Origin: Flavobacterium sp. SUN052
GTDB taxonomy: Bacteria; Bacteroidota; Bacteroidia; Flavobacteriales; Flavobacteriaceae
Length of the DNA: 57,509 nt
NCBI RefSeq assembly: GCF_028867935.1
Contig: NZ_JAPQNS010000025.1
Span: 1-57,509 of the forward strand
Direction: 5' to 3'
The notes beneath the pieces are model-generated. The model saw only the letters and a list, made by a program, of their open reading frames with translations, was not told the origin of the DNA and ran no database searches. A program made the translations under genes and the position numbers. Positions 9,753 to 56,178 of the stretch are shown here, piece after piece (the stretch's first letter is position 1; every line of letters begins with the position of its first letter).

Positions 9753-9852
9753 GTTTCAGTTTGGAGTTTGGTTTTCAGTAAACGTGTCCCGCCCGTACTG
9801 GCTTGACCACGGGAAAGTAACAACTGAAAAAGCAGACTTGAAACTCGAAACC
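9753..9852. repeat. Word-type inverted repeat after hisIE
   Basis: GTTTCAGTTTGGAGTTTGG and GGTTTTCAGT on the left face ACTGAAAAAGC and TTGAAACTCGAAACC on the right. The arms are imperfect and built from AGTTTGG/CAGTTT-like words. An inner CCCG/CGGG stem lies in the loop. It fills the gap between the hisIE stop and the holin-like start and may terminate the his operon. Confidence 0.5.
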
Positions 9853-10457
9853 TATTTTCCGGCATGCCGCGTCTGTAAAACGCCAATTATATCATCTAAA
9901 TCCATATTTTTCTGCTCTAGCAACACCAGAAAATGGAACAGCAAGTCGGCGGCTTCGCCCCGAAATAGGTCGTCGTTATTGTCTTTGGCTTCTATTACCA
10001 GTTCGACAGCCTCTTCGCCTACTTTCTGAGCGATTTTATTAACGCCCTTATTGAACAATGAGGTCGTGTACGATTTTTCGGTAGGGTTTATCTTCCGGTC
10101 GTGGATAATAGCTTGCAGATAGTTCAGAAACTGGCCCCGTCCCTGATTCACTTCCTCGAAACAGGTGTCGGCCCCGGTATGGCAGGTTGGCCCGGCGGGG
10201 CTGGCTTTGATAAGCAGCGTGTCGCCATCACAATCAACCAACATCTGGCGGACGTGGAGGAAGTTGTTAGACGTTTCGCCTTTGGTCCAGAGCCGTTGTT
10301 TGCTCCGGCTAAAAAACGTCACAACGCCCTCAGCCTGAGTTTTCTGGTAGGCTTCCTGATTTATGTAGCCCAGCATCAAAACCTTGCCGGTTTGGTCGTC
10401 CTGAATAACGGCGGGGATTAGTCCGTCGGGGGATTTATCGAAATTAATGGTAGTCAT
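9852..10457 (-). CDS. hisIE: Bifunctional phosphoribosyl-AMP cyclohydrolase / phosphoribosyl-ATP pyrophosphatase
   Basis: Steps two and three of histidine synthesis. The N-terminal HisI half (about 1-110) has the metal-binding VDCDGDTLLIKA and GPTCHTGADTCF. The C-terminal HisE half (about 112-201) has KINPTEKSYTTSLF, the acidic GEEAVELVIEAKD and GEAADLLFHFLVLL. The 201-residue fusion is normal for Bacteroidota. Last gene of the cluster, 21 bases after hisF. Cytoplasmic. Confidence 0.96.
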   Translation of the reverse strand: MTTINFDKSPDGLIPAVIQDDQTGKVLMLGYINQEAYQKTQAEGVVTFFSRSKQRLWTKGETSNNFLHVRQMLVDCDGDTLLIKASPAGPTCHTGADTCFEEVNQGRGQFLNYLQAIIHDRKINPTEKSYTTSLFNKGVNKIAQKVGEEAVELVIEAKDNNDDLFRGEAADLLFHFLVLLEQKNMDLDDIIGVLQTRHAGK

Positions 10458-10478: not shown

Positions 10479-11297
10479 TCAGTCCGTTAGTCGCATTGAA
10501 ATTCCTTTACCGGACAAATACTGTTTCAACTCTGGAATATCAATTTCTTTGAAGTGGAAAATACTGGCGGCAAGCCCAGCATCAGCCTTACCCGTTGTGA
10601 ATACGTCTACAAAATGGTCCATTGTTCCGGCCCCACCCGAGGCAATAACCGGAATATTGGCTGCGCCAGAAACGGCTGCCGTCAGCTCAAGCGCGAAGCC
10701 CGCTTTGGTGCCATCGGTATCCATCGACGTTAGCAAAATCTCACCAGCGCCCCGATTCTCTACTTCTTTAGCCCATTCGAGAGTACGGAGTTCGGTTGGT
10801 TTACGGCCTCCATGCGTATGAACAACATGGCGCAACGCCTGGGGATTAGGATTAAGGGCCGTCATTACGCCACCATCTATGCCAGAACCCAAGCCCATTT
10901 GCCGCGTATCAATAGCGACGACTATACACTGAGAGCCAAACTCTAATGCAAGCTGGTCGATTAGGGCGGGGTTACGGACAGCAGATGAATTGATCGACAC
11001 TTTATCAGCACCCGCATTGAGAAGAGCTGAGACATCGGCAATGGACGAAATACCGCCCCCCACCGTAAAGGGAATATTAACCGCATGAGCCACCTTGCGA
11101 ACCAGCTCAATTAGGGTTTTGCGTTCGTCGACGGTAGCCGTTATGTCCAGAAAAACGAGCTCGTCGGCTCCTTGCCGGGCGTAGATAGCCCCCAATTCGA
11201 CGGGGTCGCCTGCATCGCGAAGATTCACGAATTTAGTGCCTTTTACGGTGCGCCCGTCTTTAATGTCGAGGCAGGGAATGATGCGTTTGGTGAGCAT
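10479..11297 (-). CDS. hisF: Imidazole glycerol phosphate synthase, cyclase subunit
   Basis: A TIM barrel that uses ammonia from HisH to make imidazole glycerol phosphate and AICAR. The two catalytic Asp are in [15 protein letters not shown] and [11 protein letters not shown]; phosphate-binding loops include VGGGISS and ASGGAGT. At 272 residues it is somewhat longer than the usual 250-258, with extra residues around [24 protein letters not shown]. Its ATG shares a base with the stop of the GNAT gene (TAATG), so translation is probably coupled. It depends on HisH, encoded about 2 kb upstream in the same cluster. Confidence 0.96.
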
Positions 11298-11719
11298 TAA
11301 TAGCTACTGATTAACTTCCGTTGCATGTATAATTTAGGATCGTCGGGGTTGGTGAAGCCAAACTGCTCGTAAAGCGTATGGGCATCCTGCGTCACCAGAA
11401 TCCACCGGCGAAGCCCCTGTAGTTCGGGATGGTCGATGATGAACTGAACCAGCTGTTTCGACAAGCCACGGCCCCGATGTTCTTTCACAATAAATACGTC
11501 GGAGAGGTAAGCCATAGTGGTGTAGTCAGTGACGATTCGGGCGTAACCAACTTGCTGGCCATTGTCGTAAACTCCGAAGCAAAGTGACGTTTCAATGCTT
11601 TTCTGCACCAATTCCAGCGGGATGTTTTTAGCCCAGTACGATTCCTGACTCAGAAACTGATGAATGACACCTAGATCGAGCAGGGACTTGTCGGTGCTAA
11701 TGGTATAGTTATCGGTCAT
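11297..11719 (-). CDS. GNAT family N-acetyltransferase
   Basis: A 140-residue acetyltransferase. Typical GNAT parts are a beta-strand with [20 protein letters not shown], the acetyl-CoA loop [12 protein letters not shown], and the C-terminal [12 protein letters not shown]. It sits inside the his cluster, overlapping the gene before it by four bases (ATGA) and the next by one. It must be translated with the his genes, although nothing ties its substrate to histidine. Confidence 0.88.
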
Positions 11720-12429
11720 GACAAGATAAAGTTGCGGTATTTACGTCGCCCTGAAAACACATCTGGTTGCTCTCCAAAGAGTGCGTAAACCTGCTTTAAT
11801 AGTGAAGTGGCTTTTTGCAGTTCAACGATCTCTGGCCTTGCTCTGGCATAAGTTTCAGGCGAATGATAACTGTATGCTCGCCTTGAATTTGTGGTAAATA
11901 TTTCAAATCGGTACGTGGTGCCATCCGATATCATAACACCCCTCGATTCAGTACGATGTGCCTTTACAACAAACTCACCATCAGTAGTTAGATTTCCTGC
12001 GGTAAGGGGAACAGGCGGACGGGGCTTGGGGGAAATCTGATCGCGTAAAGTTGCTTGACTGGGGAGCGTCAGTAGATCATCTGCAAGCAGCTTTTGCCAT
12101 AATGCCGTGTCTATTTCCGCTCTGTTCTTAATTCGTTTTGCTTTTCGATAAGCATGTTCGTTCCAACCAATTAGGTATTCGGAAACCAGAAACCTGTTTG
12201 GCTTTTTATCCAGCACAAACAATTTCTGGGCGGTGCCGTAAGCAATTGAAATACTCACCCATAACCGAACCTGGTATTCATCCGATTTCAAATCTGGTTT
12301 ACGAATCCTCATTTTGGTGGCCAAGGAATCAAAACGAGCCGTAACCATCGCGGAGTCATCCCGAACAGGAGAAGCCCAAGCGAGTTGCGTCATCAAAAAG
12401 AGTATGGTTGCCAAAACAAAGCGATTCAT
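11716..12429 (-). CDS. Secreted protein of unknown function inside the his cluster
   Basis: I do not recognise a family. The 237-residue product starts with a signal peptide (MNRFVLATILFLMTQLAWAS). The mature part is basic, with YQVRLWVSISIAYGTAQKLFVLDK near the middle and a proline-rich stretch PKPRPPVP. It starts 11 bases after hisA and overlaps the GNAT gene by four bases, so it belongs to the his transcription unit. A secreted product within a cytoplasmic pathway suggests an inserted passenger gene. Confidence 0.72.
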   Translation of the reverse strand: MNRFVLATILFLMTQLAWASPVRDDSAMVTARFDSLATKMRIRKPDLKSDEYQVRLWVSISIAYGTAQKLFVLDKKPNRFLVSEYLIGWNEHAYRKAKRIKNRAEIDTALWQKLLADDLLTLPSQATLRDQISPKPRPPVPLTAGNLTTDGEFVVKAHRTESRGVMISDGTTYRFEIFTTNSRRAYSYHSPETYARARPEIVELQKATSLLKQVYALFGEQPDVFSGRRKYRNFILS

Positions 12430-12440
12430 ATCCAGTCAAC

Positions 12441-13163
12441 TTACATTTGATTAAACGCCATCAACTCCTTCAGCGTTACCCGTCCCTCATAAATCGCTTT
12501 GCCGACGATCACACCAAACAAGTTTAAATCAGCTAACATTTCAATGTCGCTCATGTTTGATACGCCCCCGCTGGCAATTATGTTGAGTTTGGGCGAAAGG
12601 TCCTGAAGGTTGCGGTACAAATCAAATGAGGGCCCTTGCAGCAGGCCATCTTTTGCTACATCGGTGCTGATTACATGCGTTATTCCTTTCTCCAGATACT
12701 TCTGAACAAAATCGTACACCCAAACGTCGGTGCCTTCTTCCCAACCGCTTACGGCAATTTTTTCGTTCTTGGCATCAGCACCCAAAATAATAGCGTCAGG
12801 GCCATATTGGGTTAGCCAGTTTTCAAAAACGTCGGGCTTTTTTATGGCAATGCTGCCTCCCGTTACCTGCTTCGCCCCGCACTCAAACACCATCCGCAAA
12901 TCATCGTCGGATTGAACTCCTCCACCAAAATCGACGTGAAGGCTGGTTTTGGTCGCGATCAGTTCGAGTACTTTCCAGTTGATCACGCGCTTTTCTCTGG
13001 CTCCGTCGAGGTCAACGAGGTGCAACCGCGTTAGGCCAGCATCTTCAAACTGCTGAGCTACTTCAAACGGGCGAGCGTTGTATTCTTTCTTCTGGTTGTA
13101 GTCGCCCTGGGTAAGCCGAACGGCCTTGCCGTCGATCAGGTCGATTGCGGGGATTATGTACAT
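12441..13163 (-). CDS. hisA: ProFAR isomerase (HisA)
   Basis: TIM-barrel isomerase of histidine synthesis, 240 residues, normal length. Catalytic Asp residues are in MYIIPAIDLIDGKAVRL and in ISTDVAKDGLLQGP. Phosphate loops are DFGGGVQS and ASGGVSN. It follows hisH after 100 bases that contain a word-type hairpin, and leads into the unknown gene, GNAT, hisF and hisIE. Confidence 0.96.
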   Translation of the reverse strand: MYIIPAIDLIDGKAVRLTQGDYNQKKEYNARPFEVAQQFEDAGLTRLHLVDLDGAREKRVINWKVLELIATKTSLHVDFGGGVQSDDDLRMVFECGAKQVTGGSIAIKKPDVFENWLTQYGPDAIILGADAKNEKIAVSGWEEGTDVWVYDFVQKYLEKGITHVISTDVAKDGLLQGPSFDLYRNLQDLSPKLNIIASGGVSNMSDIEMLADLNLFGVIVGKAIYEGRVTLKELMAFNQM

Positions 13164-13172
13164 GTTTTTTTG

Positions 13173-13265
13173 AACCGCAGAGACGCAAAAGATGACGCAA
13201 AGAACGCAATAGTTTCCTGTTGCTATAATTCTTGAACTTCTTGCGCCCTTTGCGTCTTTGCGGTT
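13173..13265. repeat. GACGCAAA-word hairpin between hisH and hisA
   Basis: AACCGCAGAGACGCAAAAG on the left and CTTTGCGTCTTTGCGGTT on the right fold together. Both arms are built from GACGCAAA-like words, and the right arm covers the hisH stop codon. It could act as a partial terminator or mRNA stabiliser between hisH and hisA. Confidence 0.65.
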
Positions 13266-13854
13266 AAGAAAGTTTTAAAAAGTTCTCAAGTACTCGCTGC
13301 CCAACATTACCACTGATTTCTGCGTGGAACTGGGCTGCATAAAAATTGACTTTCTGGAGCATTGCGCTGAACGGCCGGACGTAGTCGCACACCGCAGTAG
13401 TGTCAGGGCAAACATCAGCGGCATAGCTGTGAACGAAATAAACATACGCATTGTCGGGTAAGCCCTCCGTAAGCGACCCACGCAACTGGCTGATGCTATT
13501 CCAACCCGTATGCGGCACTTTTAGGCCATCAGTTCGGGGAAAACGTCTCACGTCGATGTCGAAAATGCCCATGCAGGTCGTGTCGTTCTCTTCGGAATAG
13601 CGGCACATGAGCTGCATACCCACACAAGTCCCTAAAACGGGTTGTTTCAAGGTTGGAATGAGCTTGTCGAGACCGCGTTCGCGGAGATAGGCCATAGCAG
13701 TGCTGGCCTCACCAACACCAGGAAAGATCACCTTATCGGCCGCCCGAATCTCGGCCTCATTGTCGGTCAGTAGGTAGCTGGCACCAATCCGATCAAGGGC
13801 ATACATAACCGACTGAACGTTACCCGCGTTGTATTTGATAATGACGGTTTGCAT
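13264..13854 (-). CDS. hisH: Imidazole glycerol phosphate synthase, glutaminase subunit
   Basis: Class I glutamine amidotransferase that feeds ammonia to HisF. The nucleophile is the Cys of GTCVGMQLM; the His/Glu of the triad are in AAQFHAEIS (usually QFHPE). I start it at MQTVIIKYNAGN (13854), 196 residues, the normal length. The frame runs back to 14037, but that stretch contains the his leader peptide and terminator in another frame. First structural gene of the attenuator-controlled his cluster; hisG, D, C and B are not in the window. Confidence 0.95.
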   Translation of the reverse strand: MQTVIIKYNAGNVQSVMYALDRIGASYLLTDNEAEIRAADKVIFPGVGEASTAMAYLRERGLDKLIPTLKQPVLGTCVGMQLMCRYSEENDTTCMGIFDIDVRRFPRTDGLKVPHTGWNSISQLRGSLTEGLPDNAYVYFVHSYAADVCPDTTAVCDYVRPFSAMLQKVNFYAAQFHAEISGNVGQRVLENFLKLS

Positions 13855-13861
13855 AAGAATC

Positions 13862-13958
13862 AAAAAGCCCGGCTCTGGGGTCAGAACCGGGCTTTCGTGT
13901 ATTGTGTGTCTTGCTGATTTTGAGGCAAAAGCACAAAAACAAATCACCGCGTTCTGCC
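13862..13958 (-). promoter_or_regulatory. his transcription attenuator (terminator and antiterminator)
   Basis: Terminator: stem AAAGCCCGGTTCTG with CCAGAGCCGGGCTTT-type partner (13864-13895, 14 pairs including one wobble, loop ACCC), then a T-tract, ending 8 bases before the hisH ATG. Antiterminator: GGCAGAAC (13951-13958), immediately after the leader stop codon, pairs with GTTCTG-A-CC (13879-13887), which is the terminator's 5' arm and loop. A ribosome stalled at the His codons would leave GGCAGAAC free; one that reaches the stop would cover it. Confidence 0.85.
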
Positions 13959-14009
13959 TTAGGGGCAAACCGAATGATGACGATGATGAACTGTTTTTGA
14001 GCGTAACAT
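13959..14009 (-). CDS. hisL: his operon leader peptide
   Basis: A 16-codon frame reading MLRSKTVHHRHHSVCP, too short for ordinary gene calling. Four of five consecutive codons are CAT (His), interrupted by one CGT (Arg). It begins 21 bases past the aminotransferase stop and is followed directly by the antiterminator segment, then a terminator, then hisH. The product is probably without function; its translation senses charged tRNA-His. I checked codon by codon on the minus strand. Histidine-rich leaders are established in enterobacteria; here the placement and pairing support the same role. Confidence 0.85.
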   Translation of the reverse strand: MLRSKTVHHRHHSVCP

Positions 14010-14013
14010 GGCG

Positions 14014-14044
14014 CAAAGATACGGAAGGCGTTACCAATTGGCAA
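14014..14044 (-). promoter_or_regulatory. Promoter of the his leader
   Basis: On the minus strand TTG (14044-14042), a 20-base spacer and TATCTTTG (14021-14014) match the Bacteroidota consensus. It overlaps the 3' end of the aminotransferase gene. Only four bases (CGCC) separate the -7 box from the leader ATG, so the mRNA would begin at or next to the start codon. Confidence 0.6.
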
Positions 14045-14852
14045 CCAAATCATTGAATCGTTCAAGCAAAAACCGCGACTTGGAGCCAACTCGCCCATCC
14101 CCCACCGTCAACTCGCCAATTTGCGTAATTGGCAGTACTTGCTTGGTGGAACTGGTGGTAAAAGCTTCGTCGGCATCGTAGAGTTCGGAAAGCAGAACGG
14201 GCCGCTCCTCCACCTGAAAATCGGCTTGAGCCAGCTCGATAATGGTCCGGCGGGTGATTCCGCGCAGAATATGGCGGTTGGGGGTAATGAGTTTGTCACC
14301 CTTGACAATAAAGAAATTGCTCCGACTCAGTTCGCTGATTTCCCCCCCTTTCTGGTACAGCACATCCAGAGCATTGGCCGCCCGAATCTGTTCCGCCAGT
14401 ATGATGACGTGCTTATAGTCGGTGGTTTTGAGTTCAGCCATCTCGCGGACATACTCATCCAGAATCACCTTGATTCCCTGTTCATACTGGACCGGCGGCA
14501 CCGGATGAATAGCCTCAGTCAGAATGAGCAAGTTAGGCTTGCTGATGCTCATCCCATCAGGCGAATAGCCTCCCGTCATCACAAAGCGAATAGCCACGTT
14601 GGGCTGCTCCGTCCGGGCAATCAGGTCCATTACTACGGCGTAGGCTTCGTCTTTGCTCAATGGCAACGGTAAGCGTAAACCCGCAGCAGAGTTGCGGAAT
14701 CGCTCCCAGTACCAATCCCACTGAAACGGACGACCGTTGTAGGTCAGAAAGTAATCGAACAGGCCGTAACCACGTAACAAACTAAGGTCTGTAACGCCCA
14801 CGCCAATCTGATCAGTGGGGAGAATAGTGCCGTTGAAGTAGCCGTAGTGCAT
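14031..14852 (-). CDS. Class IV PLP aminotransferase (branched-chain or D-amino-acid type)
   Basis: A 273-residue fold-type IV aminotransferase. The PLP lysine is the Lys of TTDYKHVIIL (about 145), and ISELSRSNFFIVKGDKLITP is the conserved cofactor-binding Glu region. The N-terminal YFNGTILPTDQIGVGVTD fits this family. The sequence does not decide between branched-chain amino acids, D-amino acids and aminodeoxychorismate. It lies 8 bases after the upstream membrane gene and just ahead of the his promoter, so read-through into the attenuator is possible. Confidence 0.88.
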   Translation of the reverse strand: MHYGYFNGTILPTDQIGVGVTDLSLLRGYGLFDYFLTYNGRPFQWDWYWERFRNSAAGLRLPLPLSKDEAYAVVMDLIARTEQPNVAIRFVMTGGYSPDGMSISKPNLLILTEAIHPVPPVQYEQGIKVILDEYVREMAELKTTDYKHVIILAEQIRAANALDVLYQKGGEISELSRSNFFIVKGDKLITPNRHILRGITRRTIIELAQADFQVEERPVLLSELYDADEAFTTSSTKQVLPITQIGELTVGDGRVGSKSRFLLERFNDLVANW

Positions 14853-27291: not shown

Positions 27292-28929
27292 ATGCCTTCA
27301 TTGACGCATTTTTCGGGCGTAGCTGCCGTGGTCGGTAGCCTGATTTCGCCCATTTTGCTTGCTCAGGCCCCCAAGCCTAATACGGCCCGCCCGGAAACCT
27401 ACGCTCAAACAATCACTGCTGACGACCTGCGTAAGAACCTGACAATTCTGGCCGCCGACGATATGGAAGGTCGTGAAACCGGAACGCGTGGTCAGAAAAA
27501 GGCGGCTGAGTTTATAGCCAAACAGTTTTCGACCGATGGCCTCAAGCCCATTGTTCCCGGTGCCGATGGCAAAACCGGCTATTTGCAGCCTTTTACGTTG
27601 TACAAAAAAACGTGGGGCGATTTTTACATAAAGTCGGGCGGAAAGCAGTTTGCTTACCTGAAAGATTTTCTGGCCAACGGGTTGCTTAGCCTGCCTCAGG
27701 AAACAAGCTACGAAACCGTTTTCGTCAACTATGGTATTGTCGATGACAAATTCAACGATTATGTAAACCTTGATGTAAAAGGCAAGGCAGTAGTCATGCT
27801 CGACGGAGAGCCAAAAAATGCGGATGGCTCGTCGGCGGTGAGTAACACCAAAGAGCCATCAAAATGGGGAAAGCCCGATAGCTGGCGTTCCCGTGCCCAG
27901 GTTGCGAAAGACAAAGGAGCTGCGCAGATCTTCATTGTATCGGCATCTAACGGTGACGAATTCAAGCGGATGCTAACCGAGCGGGGTGCTTTGCAACAGC
28001 GGTTCAACCGTTTGAGTTTGAAAGCTGGTCAGGAAAACGTCGGAACGGTTGGCACGTTCATGGTCTCAACCGATATGGCCGCTGCTCTATTGGGCAAGTC
28101 CACCGAGCAGATGCAGAAAGCCATCGAGCAAATCCGCTCGAAAGGAACCAGTTCGGTTGGCAAACTGGCCGGAAACGTATCGGTAAAGGCTGAGCGGAAA
28201 GACGAAAACGTTCAGACAGAGAACGTAATGGGCTACATTGAAGGCTCTGACAAAAAGGACGAAGTAGTTATCGTGTCAGGTCATTACGATCACATTGGCG
28301 TTAGCCCAGATGGTCAGATTAACAACGGCGCGAATGACGATGGTTCGGGAACGGTTTCGGTGCTTGAACTGGCTCAGGCATTTGCCAAAGCTAAGGCAGA
28401 AGGCAACGGCCCACGCCGGTCAATGCTGTTTCTGACCGTTGTGGGTGAAGAGAAAGGCTTGTTGGGTTCGGAATATTACGCTGATATTAGCCCGGTTATC
28501 CCGCTGGCCAATACAGTATGTGACCTCAACATCGATATGGTTGGCCGGGTCGACGATTTGCATCAGAATAAGTCGCCCAAAGACAATTATATCTATGCCA
28601 TTGGCTCCGACAAACTGTCGTCGGACTTGCACCGGATCAGCGAAAATGCTAATAGCCAGTACACCCAGATGGAACTGGACTACAAATACAATGAGCCCAG
28701 CGACCCAGAGCGTATTTATTACCGTTCAGATCACTACAACTTCGCGAAGCACAAAATCCCTATTATCTTTTACTTCAACGGTCTTCACGCCGATTACCAT
28801 CGCCCAACCGACGATGTAGAGAAAATCGACTTTAAGCTGGCTGAAAAAACGGCTCGTCTGGTGTTCTACACGGCCTGGGAAGTAGCCAACCGTGAAGAGC
28901 GTTTGAAAGTAGATAGTAGTAAACCGTAA
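27292..28929 (+). CDS. Secreted M28 family metallopeptidase
   Basis: A 545-residue exported zinc aminopeptidase. Signal region 1-25, a helical lead (ITADDLRKNLTILAADDMEGRETGT, typical of Bacteroidota M28 enzymes) and a PA-like insert (RAQVAKDKGAAQIFIV) precede the catalytic domain: SGHYDHIGV, NDDGSGT, EEKGLLGSEYY, DIDMVGR-type Asp and the closing YRSDHYNFAKHKIP with the last His. It should trim peptides outside the cytoplasm. Followed by a terminator. Confidence 0.92.
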   Translation: MPSLTHFSGVAAVVGSLISPILLAQAPKPNTARPETYAQTITADDLRKNLTILAADDMEGRETGTRGQKKAAEFIAKQFSTDGLKPIVPGADGKTGYLQPFTLYKKTWGDFYIKSGGKQFAYLKDFLANGLLSLPQETSYETVFVNYGIVDDKFNDYVNLDVKGKAVVMLDGEPKNADGSSAVSNTKEPSKWGKPDSWRSRAQVAKDKGAAQIFIVSASNGDEFKRMLTERGALQQRFNRLSLKAGQENVGTVGTFMVSTDMAAALLGKSTEQMQKAIEQIRSKGTSSVGKLAGNVSVKAERKDENVQTENVMGYIEGSDKKDEVVIVSGHYDHIGVSPDGQINNGANDDGSGTVSVLELAQAFAKAKAEGNGPRRSMLFLTVVGEEKGLLGSEYYADISPVIPLANTVCDLNIDMVGRVDDLHQNKSPKDNYIYAIGSDKLSSDLHRISENANSQYTQMELDYKYNEPSDPERIYYRSDHYNFAKHKIPIIFYFNGLHADYHRPTDDVEKIDFKLAEKTARLVFYTAWEVANREERLKVDSSKP

Positions 28930-55929: not shown

Positions 55930-55989
55930 GAGATTGTTTTTCGACCCTATCGAACCGTCATCCTTCCTCCGAAAATGCGGTACTCTGTT

Positions 55990-56178
55990 TGTTCCTGGCA
56001 GGTCTCCTGGCTTGTTTCGCGGTGGTTTTGGGCCTTCCCATCAAGCCGTGGCGTGACAGTGGCGAAGCAGGTAAACCACCCTACTCATGAAACATACAGT
56101 TGCGGGGACAGCTCCGGCTTTTAACCGGTATTCCCTATTAAGCCTTGTAAGCCACCCTGAAATGGCATTAGGCACCCT
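55990..56178 (-). promoter_or_regulatory. Cobalamin (AdoCbl) riboswitch
   Basis: Minus strand from 5' to 3': GGTGCC, the core GGGAATACCGG, CCGGAGCTGTCCCCGCAACT, CCACTG, GGGAAGGC, and the B12 box AAGCCAGGAGACCTGCC (55997-56013). The layout is the standard cobalamin aptamer. Its 3' edge lies about 65 bases before the btuB-like start, and a -7 box at 56190-56197 begins the transcript just ahead of it. Confidence 0.95.

Follow-up and report, generated by a model that had tools for sequence, protein, structure and literature searches.

The histidine cluster in the window, the whole 57,509-nucleotide stretch of DNA analysed here, is very probably controlled by a ribosome-mediated transcription attenuator. 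Judging from comparison of leaders and from folding models, this element would tie the genes hisH-hisA-orf-GNAT-hisF-hisIE, which follow one another in this order on the minus strand, to charged tRNA-His. A promoter box, a His-rich frame, alternative pairings, a terminator and conservation together with hisH are all demonstrable in the sequence, and the cluster genes presumably form one transcript. A previous reading of the letters alone (the sequence-only reading) had proposed His-responsive, ribosome-mediated attenuation of an operon that starts with hisH, and this is supported as the best reading. However, its statement that the logic is exactly that of enterobacteria is too strong. Attenuation by a His leader stands, but the leader is probably leaderless and it is located at hisH. 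The genes concerned are the following.

9852..10457, minus strand: hisIE (NF002747, 274.7 bits, over the cut-off)
10479..11297, minus strand: hisF (TIGR00735, 358.6 bits, over the cut-off)
11297..11719, minus strand: GNAT acetyltransferase (PF00583)
11716..12429, minus strand: open frame of 237 aa inside the his cluster
12441..13163, minus strand: hisA (TIGR00007, 245.3 bits, over the cut-off)
13264..13854, minus strand: hisH (TIGR01855, 186.9 bits, over the cut-off)
14031..14852, minus strand: class-IV aminotransferase (PF01063) upstream of the leader, called dat in the sequence-only reading

Searches of Pfam and NCBIfam gave no match for the 237-aa frame, and no NCBIfam model reached its cut-off for the upstream aminotransferase. 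Between hisH and hisA there is an inverted-repeat-like element, recognised by eye (ACCGCAGAGACGCAAA ... TTTGCGTCTTTGCGGTTAAG; window positions 13172-13268).

Ahead of hisH, the minus strand carries a 16-codon frame, an antiterminator arm, a spacer and an intrinsic terminator, in that order. Three helices compete within this region: 1:2, 2:3 (the antiterminator) and 3:4 (the terminator). Its parts are these.

14042..14044, minus strand: TTG of a -33-type element (it would occupy -35 to -33 with +1 at the leader A), from comparison of leaders
14014..14021, minus strand: TATCTTTG, a Bacteroidota sigma-A -7 box (TAnnTTTG) by its published position, with the leader ATG 4 nt downstream
13959..14009, minus strand: leader peptide frame with its stop, MLRSKTVHHRHHSVCP, from the sequence and the comparative leader search
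13981..14002, minus strand: region 1, the 5' arm of the 1:2 helix (codons 3-10), from folding and arm comparison
13974..13988, minus strand: cluster of His codons (codons 8, 9, 11 and 12)
13953..13969, minus strand: small hairpin TTTGCC/GGCAGA, predicted to hide the antiterminator arm in ribosome-free RNA (minimum free energy structure, window only)
13947..13958, minus strand: antiterminator 5' arm, GGCAGAACGCGG, directly 3' of the leader stop
13931..13949, minus strand: region 2, the 3' arm of the 1:2 helix, from folding and arm comparison
13879..13890, minus strand: antiterminator 3' arm, CCGGTTCTGACC, within the terminator
13863..13896, minus strand: intrinsic terminator, a 15-bp stem (one G-U) followed by a T-rich tract

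The leader reads ATG TTA CGC TCA AAA ACA GTT CAT CAT CGT CAT CAT TCG GTT TGC CCC TAA, so that four of its 16 codons specify histidine. The sequence-only reading had picked out this His-rich frame with four CAT codons in five, and it is indeed present at 14009-13959 (minus strand). The longer false frame that it saw over the leader was also found: a TTG frame of 257 aa (14037-13264) spans it. Immediately 3' of the TAA lies GGCAGAAC, which can pair with GTTCTG-A-CC of the terminator arm as had been claimed, and this pairing can be extended by CGG/CCG. The description of the terminator needs a correction. A stem with a T-tract does stand 8 bases before the hisH ATG (13854-13852, minus strand), but it has 15 bp rather than 14. 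The 1:2 helix pairs codons 3-10 with the stretch just 3' of the antiterminator arm. Altogether, the 159-nt leader stretch folds at -54.3 kcal/mol, compared with -33.5 +/- 3.7 for shuffles (n=200).

How might such a region respond to histidine? With ample His-tRNA, a ribosome would reach the stop codon and cover GGCAGAAC(GC); the terminator would then form and transcription would end just before hisH. When His-tRNA is scarce, it would instead stall on the CAT codons and block region 1. This would let GGCAGAACGCGG pair with CCGGTTCTGACC, the terminator would come too late and the operon would be transcribed. With no ribosome at all, the 1:2 helix and the small hairpin of the window would hide the antiterminator arm, and transcription would stop.

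A ribosome covers 10 nt beyond its A-site codon, and this value was used to model the ribosome states. In 17 of the 18 non-Dyadobacter leaders, 15-20 nt separate the last His codon from CAGA, and in 10 this spacing is precisely 17 nt. With 10 nt covered, a stall at His would therefore leave the antiterminator arm free, while a ribosome at the stop codon would cover it. Partition-function folding was run on RNA that ends with region 3, before the 3' arm of the terminator exists. For the window, the expected number of antiterminator pairs is 1.8 without a ribosome, 13.7 with a stall at the first His codon, 13.6 with a stall at the last one and 5.3 with the ribosome at the stop. In all 26 leaders the value at the stop is lower than with a stall at the last His, and in these models the stall-versus-stop logic is general, although the antiterminator arm is poorly masked at the stop in L030 and L033. 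When the full hairpin is included, the terminator of the window wins at equilibrium in every ribosome state, which means that the switch must be kinetic. The ribosome-free state is less uniform. It reaches at least 80 percent of the stalled value in five of the 18 non-Dyadobacter leaders (L025, L026, L028, L032 and L034), and in seven of eight Dyadobacter leaders it equals or exceeds the last-His stall, which counts against the model. Termination in the absence of translation is thus predicted for the window and most of its close relatives, but not for Dyadobacter.

Comparison of the helix arms gives evidence of uneven quality. For the 1:2 helix, arms of the same species pair at -19.5, against -16.8 (sd 0.6) when re-paired, and none of 20000 re-pairings was as good. 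Moreover, 27 cells are changed on both sides, a count reached in 0 of 500 shuffles. However, the reversed-arm control shows an excess too (236/20000), merely 58.9 percent of cells pair on the alignment and a control slid by +3 is nearly equal. Part of the 1:2 signal is therefore kinship or composition. For the 3:4 terminator the re-pairing result is 1/20000, with 90.4 percent of cells paired. In the 2:3 antiterminator, CAGAAC and GGTTCTG are near-invariant, the re-pairing result is 3877/20000 and column-wise covariation on a MAFFT alignment is weak, with counts close to those of shuffles. The covariation that the sequence-only reading had suggested looking for is therefore found to some extent in the 1:2 helix and the terminator, whereas the pairing of the near-invariant antiterminator cannot be judged in this way.

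Tested leader by leader against shuffled spacers, the antiterminator is better than expected (p<0.05) in seven of 18 non-Dyadobacter leaders, with a value of 0.006 for the window. Other observations lend it indirect support. GGTTCTG retains its TG in 18 of 18, even though the G, as aligned, has no terminator partner in 13 of them. Fibrisoma limi retains an antiterminator pair through a G-U. L035 has no CAGAAC, but its AACCGGG can pair with CCCGGTT of its own terminator. The retained TG, the G-U pair and this substitute pairing all seem to speak for the antiterminator, if indirectly. In Dyadobacter, neither of the two leaders tested (of eight) gave p<0.05 against shuffled spacers, and the antiterminator is not established there.

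The leader is not confined to the window. hisH was searched in GTDB species genomes, and the best 80 loci (L021-L100) were kept and searched for leaders in a manner blind to histidine, namely TAnnTTTG, then 2-7 nt, then an ATG that opens a frame of 8-30 codons. Such a leader precedes hisH in 25 of these best 80 loci and in the window, with one match each. The 25 loci belong to Spirosoma (10), Dyadobacter (8), Larkinella (3), Fibrisoma (2), Fibrella (1) and a Cytophagales MAG (1), so that the three relatives named in the sequence-only reading (Spirosoma, Fibrella and Larkinella) all have it. The His-codon enrichment anticipated there is seen as well: all 25 leaders contain His codons, from one to five, as does that of the window, and none was selected for them. 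The peptides include MFTTTTVHHRHHSICP, MNSTNNTHRHHHSVVS, MILATTNHRHHHSER, MITTKTARSHHHHVRP and MLTAETYHLHHSLSAFGRLG. Two His codons occur in MILTSTYHRHRSGR, MISAKTSCSHHYSVC, MLRRSASHRVHVTFVA and the Dyadobacter leader MLKTETCPQLHQSHQAFGRLG, and the weakest leader, MTTTKITLTYHQVRP (L035), has one. No such leader was found before hisH in the other 55 of the 80 loci, Runella and Aquirufa among them, with only 127 nt of upstream sequence for L042 and 363 nt for L086. In three of these 55 (L070, L073 and L076) there are short His-rich frames of other kinds, apparently by chance. A second match in the window itself (ATG at 28381, MPEPVQAPKPFPNHRHSRRC) was also judged to be chance because it contains just two His codons and the first terminator-like hairpin to follow it comes after 151 nt and is weaker (-11.0).

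A covariance model (R1) was built from 18 rows, the window and 17 non-Dyadobacter leaders, and run on 28 genomes, in each of which 111 candidates were scored. In all 18 source genomes there is one match of at least 64.5 bits, at the hisH leader, and the next best match scores 37.9 bits. R1 recovers the hisH leader in just one of eight Dyadobacter genomes (27.8 bits). Among the 16 weaker matches that were read, this Dyadobacter leader is one and the other 15 have no recognisable His leader with terminator. The Dyadobacter hisH leaders (L037-L041, L055, L059 and L069) have a peculiarity of their own: a 46-nt stretch (TGTTTTTGCAAG ... GTATCCC) is identical in eight of eight. It is conserved more than the peptide, which is remarkably strict for the spacer of an attenuator. 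The distance from attenuator to hisH also varies. It is 87-129 nt in L025, L030, L040 and L080, with inverted repeats in some (by eye), and about 775 bp in Larkinella rosea (L033:3226-4000). This last gap contains a frame that we take to resemble a REP-associated transposase.

Might the hairpin do no more than end transcription of the aminotransferase gene upstream, with the His-rich frame arising by chance? It is indeed downstream of that gene, with which it shares a strand, and it resembles the ordinary terminators at gene ends in these genomes. However, leader and terminator stay with hisH even though the upstream gene changes. The six upstream genes examined comprise an aminotransferase (L021), a DUF72 protein, an M20 peptidase, a protein without a family and two divergent genes, for an M14 peptidase in Dyadobacter and a GDP-mannose dehydratase in Fibrella. 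Since these families differ and two of the genes are divergent, the element appears to travel with hisH. Nor does any TAnnTTTG separate the terminator from hisH in those loci with a leader that were read (300 nt each; the L033 insert in part). Finally, the His content of the leaders is far above that of background frames. Only 16 of 7862 short ATG frames in loci L021-L100 have at least four His in five codons, true leaders included. The His-blind search of both strands of the 80 loci (1.27 Mb) gave 41 matches, 25 of them hisH leaders, and just one of the other 16 has at least two His in seven codons. An end-of-gene terminator beside a chance frame is therefore very improbable. A riboswitch that binds tRNA (T-box type) or a metabolite instead of a translated leader is harder still to credit. 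An intrinsic terminator with an alternative pairing ahead of an amino-acid operon would suit it, but the recurring His-codon frame argues for translation and no Rfam family matches the leader or 12 related loci. The Rfam scan of the leader returned a single row, a sub-threshold snoRNA elsewhere, and the His_leader family (presumably RF00514) gave no match at gathering score in the window or the 12 related loci.

A closer rival accepts the attenuator but has its message begin further upstream, for example by read-in from the aminotransferase gene, with the peptide translated from an untranslated region or after an upstream stop. That gene has the same orientation and stops 21 nt short of the leader ATG, and the -33 TTG of the leader promoter is just beside its 3' end. 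Moreover, published figures put 5' untranslated regions shorter than 10 nt at just ~3.7 percent in Bacteroides and leaderless messages at 5.5 percent of the mapped F. psychrophilum mRNAs; such messages are a minority in both. In spite of this, we consider the leadered version unlikely. The gap from box to ATG is 4 nt in 24 of 26 hisH leaders, whatever the upstream gene, and 3 and 5 nt in the other two. In F. psychrophilum the TAnnTTTG box lies at -12 to -5 (PMC9723704). A 4-nt gap would then put +1 on the A of the AUG, so the hisH leader message is probably leaderless, starting at or next to that A. A TTG falls within -39 to -29 in 20 of the 26 leaders, and all six exceptions are Dyadobacter. 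The same spacing recurs at hisG. Among nine Spirosomataceae hisG leaders the gap is 4 nt in five and 5 nt in two, the remaining two having a damaged box (L127) and a longer gap (Runella), and a tenth leader (L102) also has a gap of 4. In contrast, among 330 ORFs of at least 150 aa from 41 loci, a box stands within 100 nt of 53 but never with a gap of 4, although the first ATG was taken as the start and the distances are rough.

Leaderless genes may be fairly common in the host bacterium. Its genome contains TAnnTTTG-N4-ATG at 131 sites, and a reversed control has 93. Reading of 94 of the 131, four of them in the window, gave 55 open frames that exceed 45 codons or run off the stretch, many of them like real genes. 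The other 39 are short frames, and a His run and a strong terminator occur together in the hisH leader alone.

The assembly's taxonomic label seems to be wrong, since its HisH is 52-58 percent identical to that of genomes listed under the same genus and 83-89 percent identical to that of named Spirosoma and Fibrisoma. Across the phylum, a HisG was detected in 171 of 198 sampled genomes. Sixty hisG-upstream stretches (L128-L187) were compared, 44 from the class assigned to the window's assembly (its own excluded) and 16 from other classes. All 44 same-class stretches and 8 of the 16 others have a short frame with at least three His in seven codons ahead of hisG, counting a few whose length or start codon makes them doubtful (L154, L166, L167 and L177). 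As a rough false-positive rate, 3 of 55 hisH-upstream stretches without a leader also have such a frame. A terminator follows in 31 of the same class (28 at -9 kcal/mol or better) and five of other classes, or 36 of 52 overall. Judging from these sequences, a His leader at hisG seems to be the norm in the class. What is unusual in the window's genome is therefore that there is none at hisG and one at hisH. Its hisG lies elsewhere (C1:1584371), preceded by a -7 box and an untranslated region of ~27 nt, and no frame with at least three His in seven codons occurs in the 450 nt upstream.

The hisG loci of 26 relatives are divided. A leader is present in seven of nine Spirosoma, two of two Fibrisoma and the single Runella, and in this sample none was found in eight Dyadobacter, three Larkinella, one Fibrella, the nearest relative (L124) and one further MAG. 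The Spirosoma and Fibrisoma hisG leaders (L102-L104, L106, L109, L114-L116 and L127; e.g., MISQRATHSPFRHRRHHCGC) mostly have leaderless-type spacing. They resemble the hisH leader in this, in their His codons and in their pathway. They differ in that no intrinsic terminator was seen when looked for by eye, and in that most have a -7-type, TAnnTTTG-like box (TATTTTTGCCC) between leader and hisG. It is fairly likely that these facts belong together. The two halves of the split Spirosomataceae his pathway would then both be under leaderless leader peptides with differing read-outs. The -7 box would make the AUG the first transcribed codon, and the sensing ribosome would load on the bare nascent 5' end. 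The read-out would be the intrinsic terminator for the hisH copy and another one for the hisG copy of Spirosoma. Some lineages, this one included, would retain the hisH copy alone, and the unattenuated half would then contain the gene of the first pathway enzyme.

Precedents exist in the enteric his leader, leaderless Actinobacterial leaders and predicted Flavobacterium leaders. Like the enterobacterial his attenuator, the present one combines a peptide rich in His codons, competing helices and an intrinsic terminator at a his operon. Unlike it, the present one stands at hisH of a split operon, is probably leaderless and has a TAnnTTTG promoter. The leader of C. glutamicum ilvBNC is reportedly made without a ribosome binding site, to go by the title of a cited paper. 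In the enterobacterial peptide, as described in one account, seven His codons are consecutive, compared with four here (PMC3896937). Leaderless leaders have been described for Streptomyces, along with those of Corynebacterium (PMC8079986; PMC4046766; PMC3890552). The S. lividans leuL, trpL and ilvL attenuators are similar to the hisH leader as proposed here in that the peptide is encoded at the 5' end of the RNA or immediately beside it, and several Actinobacteria leader attenuators also have Rho-independent terminators (PMC8079986; PMC4046766). However, phylum and promoter class differ, and none of the eight S. lividans leaders in these accounts is for histidine. Histidine leader peptides of Actinobacteria are the subject of a conference report cited in PMC4833913.

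Closer to home, leader-peptide attenuation has been predicted in Flavobacterium psychrophilum, and a 5' element upstream of hisG has been named in the Flavobacteriaceae (PMC9723704). This element belongs to the same phylum but lies at hisG, and section 19 of that paper gives no peptide for it. In nine hisG stretches of the window's nominal genus the ATG is 17-35 nt after the box, so these hisG leaders are not leaderless. The B. thetaiotaomicron transcript map mentions short frames reminiscent of leader peptides (PMC7366714). A survey of 2010 records leader peptides as then known in Proteobacteria and Actinobacteria only and adds Firmicutes, and the stem 'Bacteroid' is absent from the text available of it (PMC2965389). 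In the accessible text of a superphylum study of his genes, attenuation is mentioned once, for enterobacteria (PMC8305728). No recognisable report of a hisH leader in Bacteroidota was found in the open-access papers that were searched, and subscription literature may hold predictions. The present data suggest that histidine synthesis in Bacteroidota is widely controlled by classical attenuation of the amino-acid type. Gene callers and Rfam seem to miss the leader family found here. They also raise the question of how ribosomes without Shine-Dalgarno initiation load on leaderless nascent RNA ahead of RNA polymerase. Elsewhere in the window, a Cobalamin riboswitch is found at 55980-56174 on the minus strand (96.7 bits).
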